From Bifidobacterium breve (lineage in GTDB: Bacteria > Actinomycetota > Acidimicrobiia > Acidimicrobiales > Ilumatobacteraceae), in contig CAMDLK010000001.1 of NCBI GenBank assembly GCA_945901725.1, positions 1-64,000 of the forward strand: 64,000 nt of DNA. The letters run 5' to 3'. The translations under genes were made by a program, and so were the position numbers. Positions 3,862 to 6,036 of this stretch are shown here, piece by piece. The notes under the pieces were generated by a model. That model saw only the letters and a list, made by a program, of their open reading frames with translations, did no database searches and had not been told where the DNA came from. Position 1 is the stretch's first letter. Each line of letters begins with the position of its first letter.

Positions 3862-4314
3862 TTACTTCACAAATACAGGACACGCGTCATCGCCGATGGG
3901 ACACATTGGCGCATTTTTGCGAACAAGAAGAAAACAACTGTTACACAGAAGCTCGTCTGCGCGTTTCGGTTGCAGCTCGTCGTCGCCTGTTGAGCGTTCT
4001 TCGTTGTCTGGAACTTCGTCTTCTTCAGCCGGAAGATCTTCGCTGGCGAGACGATCTTTCAGAATCTTCGAGAGGTCCTCTTCGACGTCGTCTGGAGCAA
4101 CCATGTCGTCGTCGTCGTCATCATCATCGCCCGGCTTGCGCACGATGGTGGCACCCATTGAATCATCGTCGTCTTCATCGTCGTCGAGCAAAGCGTCTTC
4201 GTCGTCTTCGATGAGAGGCTCGTCAAGTTCCAATTCCTCGAGGTCGTCAATTTCATCCCCATCTAGGTCAATCTCCAGCTCAACTTCAACTGGTTCAATC
4301 TTCTTCTTAGCCAC
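3862..4314 (-). CDS. DUF4193-like acidic protein with C-terminal Cys motif
   Basis: Asp/Glu-rich N-terminus; C-terminal ELLCNSCFLLVRKNAPMCPIGDDACPVF resembles DUF4193. AGGAG about 8 nt upstream of the GTG start. Confidence 0.75.
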   Translation of the reverse strand: MAKKKIEPVEVELEIDLDGDEIDDLEELELDEPLIEDDEDALLDDDEDDDDSMGATIVRKPGDDDDDDDDMVAPDDVEEDLSKILKDRLASEDLPAEEDEVPDNEERSTGDDELQPKRADELLCNSCFLLVRKNAPMCPIGDDACPVFVK

Positions 4315-4428: not shown

Positions 4429-6036
4429 TTACTGATCTTTTCCGGATCTTTTGGACTCTGCGCGCCTCTCGGACTCAAGCCGTTCGAGTTCGGGTACTTC
4501 TGTCGTCATATGGGACATCGATGCCGCAACGGCATGATGCCCGGCCTTCTCAGAGATCTGTTTATGCATCTCCAGAGCCACCCTGCGGTACGAAGGATGG
4601 CCTTGTGGACCTGAGCGCAGTTCCAGCATGTGCATCGCCTCACGGGCGTTGAACTGCATCACATAGCGAATTCGGTACGCCATGGAAACTGCGTAACTTG
4701 CCTGATACGGGTGGTCAGCGGCAAGGGCGTCATACAGCGAGGATGAACGGGCCATGACTTCGTCGAACATCTCGGCTCCCCCAGCAGCATCGACCAATTC
4801 TGGACGTGAATAGCCGTGGTACGGAGTCAATGGCTGCCACTCGATTGTCAATAGGCGATGCCGCTGCATGTCGCGAAATGCGCCGTAATCAGACAAGACG
4901 TCGAAACGGTAGTCAATGCTCTCGAAGGCTCTTCCAGGACGATGGCGACGATTGTCCCGGTTGCCGATGTACGCGTTCAAAATATCTGTCTTGTCAGCAA
5001 CGCTCATGGCTTCGACCTTCAGACGAATTTGAGATTCCGGTAAATGCGAATACTGGTAACAGGCTGCTGCCACCAACTTGTTCTCACCATCTGGATCAAA
5101 ATCAATAAGCGTTACTTCATCTACATCAGTCGAAATATCGTCGCCCATGATTGCATCGACGATGTCAGTCATAGCAGCGGTATTGGTGGAAAGGTAGTCA
5201 GACCACTTCACACCTCTTTCTGGAACATCGACTCGACGAAGGAACGATGGGATCACTTTTCGCAACTCGACGAGCATCATGTCTGCGTAATAACGCGCTT
5301 CAGGAAGCGGGTGTGCACGCATGCGTAACAAGAGTTGTTCGTATCCCTGTCCGCTTCCATAGATTCCAACATTGGACAAAGAAGATGCCGGCAATAGTCC
5401 GCGCACCGCGTCGAGCGCTTTAGCGCGAGTGGCCTGGCGGTACACGAAGTCACTATCTTTCGGGCCCTTAATCACGGTCGAACGAACGTAATTAGTTACT
5501 AGTTCAGCAAGCTGGCTGTAGGAATCAAACATGCGATCCATATCGCCGACATAACGCGTGCCGAATCGGCCTTCCAAAATGTCAGGATCACGGTAGTAGC
5601 GATAGCGCCCGCCCAGCCTGTCGTCGTAAGCGATGTAGCGAGTGCTTTGCTCGAGGTAGCTCATTAGGCGACCCCATTCAAGAATTTTGGTCAAGATATT
5701 TGAAGATTGTTCACATGCGAGGTGAACTCCACCAAGTTGTGCAACGGAATCGTCTCCGTACTCAACGAAAACTTTCTCGTAGAGAGTTTCAGCTCTGTCA
5801 ATACCCACTGTTGCGTCTACGGCTTGATCTCCGGCGATCTCGAGGTCGTTCACGAACTCATCCAAAAACAATCGACGCAAACTGCGGGGACTACGGCTGT
5901 AGCGGGCAAACAAGGCGCCTTTTACAACTTCCGGCAAATTGACTAACGCAAAAACGGGAAGGTCAAGATTTGTAAAATAACGACGCAGGATGTCGGATTC
6001 TGTATCTGTAAATTCCTCGGGAACATAAACACTCAC
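4429..6036 (-). CDS. Tandem ThyX-like (FAD-dependent thymidylate synthase-related) protein
   Basis: 535 aa, about twice ThyX length; first half LMSYLEQSTRYIAYD, second half FRDMQRHRLLTIEWQP. Confidence 0.75.
   Translation of the reverse strand: MSVYVPEEFTDTESDILRRYFTNLDLPVFALVNLPEVVKGALFARYSRSPRSLRRLFLDEFVNDLEIAGDQAVDATVGIDRAETLYEKVFVEYGDDSVAQLGGVHLACEQSSNILTKILEWGRLMSYLEQSTRYIAYDDRLGGRYRYYRDPDILEGRFGTRYVGDMDRMFDSYSQLAELVTNYVRSTVIKGPKDSDFVYRQATRAKALDAVRGLLPASSLSNVGIYGSGQGYEQLLLRMRAHPLPEARYYADMMLVELRKVIPSFLRRVDVPERGVKWSDYLSTNTAAMTDIVDAIMGDDISTDVDEVTLIDFDPDGENKLVAAACYQYSHLPESQIRLKVEAMSVADKTDILNAYIGNRDNRRHRPGRAFESIDYRFDVLSDYGAFRDMQRHRLLTIEWQPLTPYHGYSRPELVDAAGGAEMFDEVMARSSSLYDALAADHPYQASYAVSMAYRIRYVMQFNAREAMHMLELRSGPQGHPSYRRVALEMHKQISEKAGHHAVAASMSHMTTEVPELERLESERRAESKRSGKDQ

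Follow-up and report, generated by a model that had tools for sequence, protein, structure and literature searches.

Can a thymidylate synthase of the ThyX type, duplicated and with its signature broken in both copies, still make thymidylate? The question is raised by a gene in the first 64,000 nucleotides (the window) of contig CAMDLK010000001.1, from an assembly titled Bifidobacterium breve (GCA_945901725.1) and placed by GTDB in the family Ilumatobacteraceae of the Acidimicrobiia. A single open reading frame (ORF) of 535 amino acids (aa) encodes two ThyX-like domains in tandem, and the original prediction, made from the letters alone, read it as a duplicated, fused and subfunctionalised ThyX with composite sites. 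The partition of the residues, the published map of ThyX subunits, profile comparison and the exchange with thyA now lend that reading the support of sequence comparison: we put at roughly 80% the probability that the tandem is a working thymidylate synthase of two fused, diverged ThyX domains, with composite sites formed from complementary halves, the assembly, stoichiometry and chemistry being what we infer.

Two ThyX domains with complementary residue losses

The uninterrupted 535-aa ORF at window positions 4429-6036 is real, as originally predicted, but the strand has to be corrected: the gene runs on the minus strand, and many stops close the plus strand there. The start codon is GTG, and the N-terminal V-S/T-V-Y-V/I-P-E is kept among relatives. 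Each half is a ThyX domain. Taken alone, both the N-terminal (N) half, with 49.3 bits, and the C-terminal (C) half, with 68.4 bits, exceed the cut-off of 24.8 for Pfam Thy1 (PF02511), and both match a canonical ThyX profile in HHalign (E 7e-16 and E 3.5e-15, respectively), so that Thy1 similarity is missing from neither. Against each other, the halves give a near-absent profile match (HHalign E 0.004, probability 9%), since the parts of ThyX that they conserve are not the same.

Structure prediction points the same way. Modelled by AlphaFold2 with canonical viral ThyX in the alignment, the N half reaches a predicted local distance difference test (pLDDT) value of 77; its strands 103-110, 126-129 and 221-228 correspond to C-half 375-382, 397-400 and 456-463, and the top Foldseek match is M. 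tuberculosis ThyX (E 9e-7, TMt 0.59-0.60). The model of the full protein (45 sequences; pLDDT 72.8, predicted TM-score 0.65) is mostly confident in the C half, and its best PDB matches are to T. maritima ThyX, with TMt ~0.61-0.66. By predicted fold, then, both halves would match ThyX, the N half needing canonical sequences in its alignment. With the tandem itself as query, neither phmmer nor profile searches found a match in the PDB, and templates there were reached via a canonical relative.

The two motifs that had drawn attention to the gene are both present and show the complementary loss of the ThyX signature described for them. In the N half, EWGRLMSYLEQSTRYIAYD (aa 120-138) has W121-G122-R123 at the RHR position and retains E129, S131, R133 and Y134; in the C half, FRDMQRHRLLTIEWQPLTPY retains R392-H393-R394 and carries P402, T404 and P405 in the SxRY columns. 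We followed this partition through an alignment of 55 tandems, consisting of a cellular group of 44 (one from a viral contig) and 11 distant sequences down to ~22% identity, which come from Actinomycetota, Bacteroidales, Paenibacillus replicons and phages, and found it unchanged in all 55. R392, H393, R394 and R474 of the C half are kept throughout, as are S97, S131, R133 and R212 of the N half, with E129 and Y134 following in 54/55 (Y134 is F in one sequence). Conversely, no N half has the RHR, and no C half has S-x-R-Y at the aligned columns, which hold P/R/A, T/S/G and P/T instead. The few S-x-R-Y strings seen in C halves were rejected as a retained motif, as the alignment places them outside the motif columns.

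A control set of 89 single-domain ThyX, to which viral contigs contributed 80, has R95, H96, R97, S105, R107, R190 and R199 (M. tuberculosis numbering) in 89/89 and Y108 in 88/89. Judged by the presence of RHR and S-x-R-Y within the same domain, the canonical arrangement is found in 0/55 tandems versus 88-89/89 single-domain proteins.

Exchange with thyA and absence of DHFR

The window's own genome is 87% complete, which makes absence no proof; in it we found neither thyA nor any other Thy1/thyX gene, canonical or not, a co-occurrence that the original prediction had left to be checked, and neither thymidine kinase nor dihydrofolate reductase (DHFR). The class was sampled with 197 Acidimicrobiia genomes at least 90% complete. 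Thy1 is present in 177 of them; in ~169 it takes the form of a double match within a single ORF of 530-600 aa, or of a piece of such an ORF. A single canonical ThyX is carried by 8 genomes, all of one genus, and 20 are without any Thy1. thyA occurs in 2/169 tandem genomes versus 19/20 Thy1-less genomes, and tandem and thyA tend to exclude each other in a sample of the phylum as well, with Fisher p values (7e-23 and 8e-14, respectively) that are inflated by relatedness and weigh less than exchanges within families. Such exchanges of tandem and thyA inside single families are seen in two families of the class sample and two of the phylum sample and, since they recur, the exclusion is not only shared ancestry.

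Cells with thyA need DHFR because ThyA makes dihydrofolate (DHF). ThyX users are often without it (PMC1971073). DHFR was found in 9/19 thyA-only genomes, often adjoining thyA, and in both tandem-plus-thyA genomes, and in 2/167 tandem-only genomes, in one of these as a weak 27-bit match. Its absence from tandem-only genomes matches the prediction of ThyX chemistry, and the tandem functionally replaces thyA in these genomes.

Three side observations concern thyA. The thyA-only genomes of one family are without Pfam DHFR_1, and dihydrofolate must there be reduced by some other enzyme. One genome (~90% complete) has neither Thy1 nor thyA, which may reflect missing sequence or a life on salvage only. 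In one of the two tandem-plus-thyA genomes, an Acidimicrobiia thyA (G009:C39:1500-4300) is split by ~1 kb with an ORF resembling a GIY-YIG homing endonuclease; we liken it to the T4 td intron, Rfam at the gathering threshold found no group I intron in the insert, and the DNA may be of phage origin.

Proposed assembly and alternative explanations

The canonical ThyX site offers a framework for these residue losses. In M. tuberculosis ThyX, it is assembled from three subunits: subunit A provides the RHR (95-97) and Arg199, subunit C Arg87, Ser105, Arg107 and Tyr108, and subunit B Ser71 and Arg190 (PMC6514825); the tetramer has 222 symmetry (PMC3498832). The residues kept in the tandem follow this map: the A set is found in the C half, and the Ser/Arg/Tyr of the C set in the N half. 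The C half would accordingly play the part of subunit A, with the flavin adenine dinucleotide (FAD)-binding RHR and the catalytic Arg, and the N half that of subunit C, with the S-x-R-Y. As the A-C contact is two-fold and mutual, each pair of a C half and an N half would form two sites, of which one has both sets and the other has none; judging from the published geometry, this mutual contact in a 222 tetramer would be why all residue losses fall on the same two sites. Two chains, making four ThyX folds, would come together as a pseudo-tetramer in which two sites are composite and live and the other two dead. The putative reaction would turn deoxyuridine monophosphate (dUMP), methylenetetrahydrofolate (CH2-THF) and NADPH into thymidylate (dTMP) and tetrahydrofolate (THF), with THF released rather than DHF.

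Several observations weigh against this picture. The NCBIfam thyX equivalog TIGR02170 scores the whole tandem protein at 37.3 bits, below the cut-off of 87.9, with canonical single-domain ThyX at 166-204 bits. In the full-length AlphaFold2 model, aa 89-145, which contain the SxRY, have pLDDT below 50, and the N half is confidently ThyX-folded only with canonical ThyX in the alignment, which favours that outcome. Loss of the catalytic Arg from the N half is not absolute: in 37/44 cellular-group tandems, R238 of that half stands at its aligned position. Position 95 is Asp in all 44 of these and His in 11/11 distant tandems and 89/89 canonical proteins; the T. maritima residue H53 stacks on folate and flavin (PMC11940539), engineered T. 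maritima H53D structures exist in the PDB (4kar, 4kas), and D95 of the cellular group is, as aligned, a natural counterpart of H53D at the folate-stacking residue. The residues of the third subunit are distributed in two ways: in the cellular group, the N half holds the Ser71 equivalent and the C half those of Arg190 and Glu74, and in most of the phage/Paenibacillus group all of them lie in the N half. Judging from the faecal phage and the Paenibacillus group, the N half might be subunit B throughout, but the cellular group contradicts this at Arg190 and Glu74.

An alternative arrangement would have the C half as the enzyme, a homotetramer with substitute residues of its own, and the N half as a structural or regulatory pseudo-domain. 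In its favour, the C half has the higher Thy1 score, and it is the half in which the FAD motif and the catalytic Arg survive, together with the equivalents of Arg190 and Glu74 in cellular-group tandems. A pseudo-domain, however, would not retain precisely the dUMP-binding residues that are absent from the C half, and S131, R133 and R212 stand in 55/55 N halves and Y134 in 54/55, a conservation that spans both bacteria and phages down to ~22% identity and makes this arrangement improbable. We give still less credence to a ThyX-derived nucleotide enzyme catalyzing another reaction, in the manner of the polyoxin enzyme PolB, a Streptomyces ThyX paralogue. Neofunctionalised ThyX paralogues do exist (PMC5954106), and the replacement of the folate-stacking His by D95 in the cellular group would fit; yet PolB, unlike the tandem, accompanies a second thyX. 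The tandem is the sole thymidylate synthase candidate in almost every genome that has it, trades places with thyA and goes with a missing DHFR, and the same facts count against the flavin or nucleotide enzyme of another activity that the original prediction kept as its alternative. Although part of the ThyX signature is missing from each half, as it might be if assembly had joined two thyX genes or if this were a pseudogene, the data refute an artefact or a decayed gene: the same single ORF recurs at 256 places in species-level genomes, from 98% to ~22% identity; the partition recurs with it, and most copies are free of stops.

Distribution and origin

Close relatives of the two-domain synthase are encoded at these 256 places in GTDB species genomes, and nearly all of the best 80 are titled Actinomycetota or Acidimicrobiia. 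Other families of the phylum have the tandem in ~130/397 genomes. Thy1 matches in the tandem genomes of the phylum sample nearly always number exactly two, one for each half. Further records come from Parabacteroides distasonis, Miltoncostaea, Euzebya and Paenibacillus and, among phages, from Tunturi_5, BONAISHI, Ma-LMM01, the Vibrio 'Yong' phages, a Microcoleus phage and a human-faecal phage. Used as queries in viral scans, the tandems of Tunturi_5, BONAISHI and the faecal phage gave no relatives. A split of the gene in the Vibrio 'Yong' phages was ruled out, as it is one ORF of 461 aa. Public annotation calls many tandems 'FAD-dependent thymidylate synthase' or 'thymidylate synthase' and others 'hypothetical protein'.

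In a tree of the halves, a single clade (99/97) unites 16/17 N halves, and the C halves also cluster (98/95); one old duplication therefore explains nearly all tandems. The faecal-phage tandem has the same division of residues and, with long branches, falls outside the main N-half clade; its position may reflect a second duplication event. The bolder proposition, that an asymmetric half-of-sites ThyX is the sole thymidylate synthase of most Acidimicrobiia and that complementary splitting evolved more than once, is possible, but we would rather bet against it as a whole.

Some records deserve a comment of their own. Seven metagenome bins with a tandem ThyX 72-96% identical to that of the window are titled Bifidobacterium breve, Acidobacteria, Ferrithrix or Acidimicrobium ferrooxidans, and these titles are probably wrong. 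The Parabacteroides distasonis tandem (NZ_OY725790.1) is 47% identical and lies a few genes from a dihydrofolate reductase, in a record labelled plasmid yet carrying chromosomal-looking genes. One genome has two tandem genes, on different contigs; with a contamination of 5%, the second may be foreign.

Coordinates and neighboring gene

The features of the tandem gene are collected in Table 1. Directly downstream, on the minus strand at 3862-4314, lies a very acidic ORF of 150 aa with a Cys-rich C terminus, for which Pfam gave no match.

Table 1. Features of the tandem ThyX gene in window coordinates (Mtb, M. tuberculosis; Tm, T. maritima)
Feature	Position	Strand	Remarks
Tandem ThyX gene, 535 aa	4429..6036	-	GTG start 6034-6036, stop 4429-4431; 256 relatives
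N-terminal ThyX half, aa 80-270, dUMP-side residues	5227..5799	-	Pfam Thy1, HHalign, AlphaFold2 and Foldseek
S97 (position of Mtb S71 / Tm T55)	5746..5748	-	55/55 tandems
W121-G122-R123, degenerate N-half RHR	5668..5676	-	RHR in N half of 0/55 tandems
E129-x-S131-x-R133-Y134, retained ExSxRY, dUMP-binding (Tm E86/S88/R90/Y91)	5635..5652	-	S131, R133 55/55; E129, Y134 54/55
R212, by-eye alignment to Tm R147 (ARxVLP motif)	5401..5403	-	N half 55/55; C half S447, lost
Linker between halves, aa 271-308	5113..5226	-	Mostly helical in predicted model
C-terminal ThyX half, aa 309-498, FAD-binding RHR and catalytic Arg	4543..5112	-	Pfam Thy1, HHalign
R392-H393-R394, retained RHR FAD motif	4855..4863	-	55/55; RHNR in Paenibacillus group
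R474 (Mtb R199 / Tm R174)	4615..4617	-	55/55 tandems

Relation to known systems

Canonical ThyX, also known as flavin-dependent thymidylate synthase (FDTS; T. maritima TM0449 and M. tuberculosis ThyX; PF02511, TIGR02170), shares with the tandem the Thy1 fold, the RHR and S-x-R-Y residues and the catalytic Arg, and likewise replaces thyA and makes DHFR dispensable. It differs in being ~220-250 aa long, with both residue sets in every subunit and four equal sites in a homotetramer, whereas the tandem has two fused domains and the sets divided between them. A duplicated ThyX of Chloroflexi was remarked on, as uncharacterised, by Valas and Bourne in 2009 (PMC3224940), with no residue analysis, mechanism or distribution; likened by its description, it very likely belongs to the same family. 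Our search of open-licence papers for duplicated or tandem ThyX found only this remark and no account of a complementary partition. The duplication of ThyX is thus already known, and the complementary residue partition is new as far as the open-licence literature shows.

The two-domain layout and the residue partition are shared by gp020 of the Microcystis phage Ma-LMM01 (491 aa, phrog_36506), which, unlike the window's tandem, has His at the D95 position and is detected by Pfam in its N half only. The best analogue is the monomeric dUTPase of Epstein-Barr virus, in which gene duplication, fusion and motif loss have left one site made from motifs of both domains (PMC12524310). Herpesvirus dUTPase follows the same evolutionary logic at a neighboring step of dTMP synthesis; on the other hand, its fold is unrelated, the change was from trimer to monomer and it is confined to herpesviruses.

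Implications

ThyX is a drug target within an essential pathway, thymidylate synthesis. In a natural fused form with the residues sorted by role, each role could be mutated separately without affecting all four sites, so that half-site reactivity and the contributions of subunits, residue by residue, would become testable. The tandems also expose a blind spot of annotation: they fall below the cut-off of the NCBI thyX equivalog, yet look like the only thymidylate synthase of almost an entire class. The class concerned, the Acidimicrobiia, is a large one of mostly uncultured freshwater and marine bacteria, and for nearly all of it the tandem appears to be the only thymidylate synthase.
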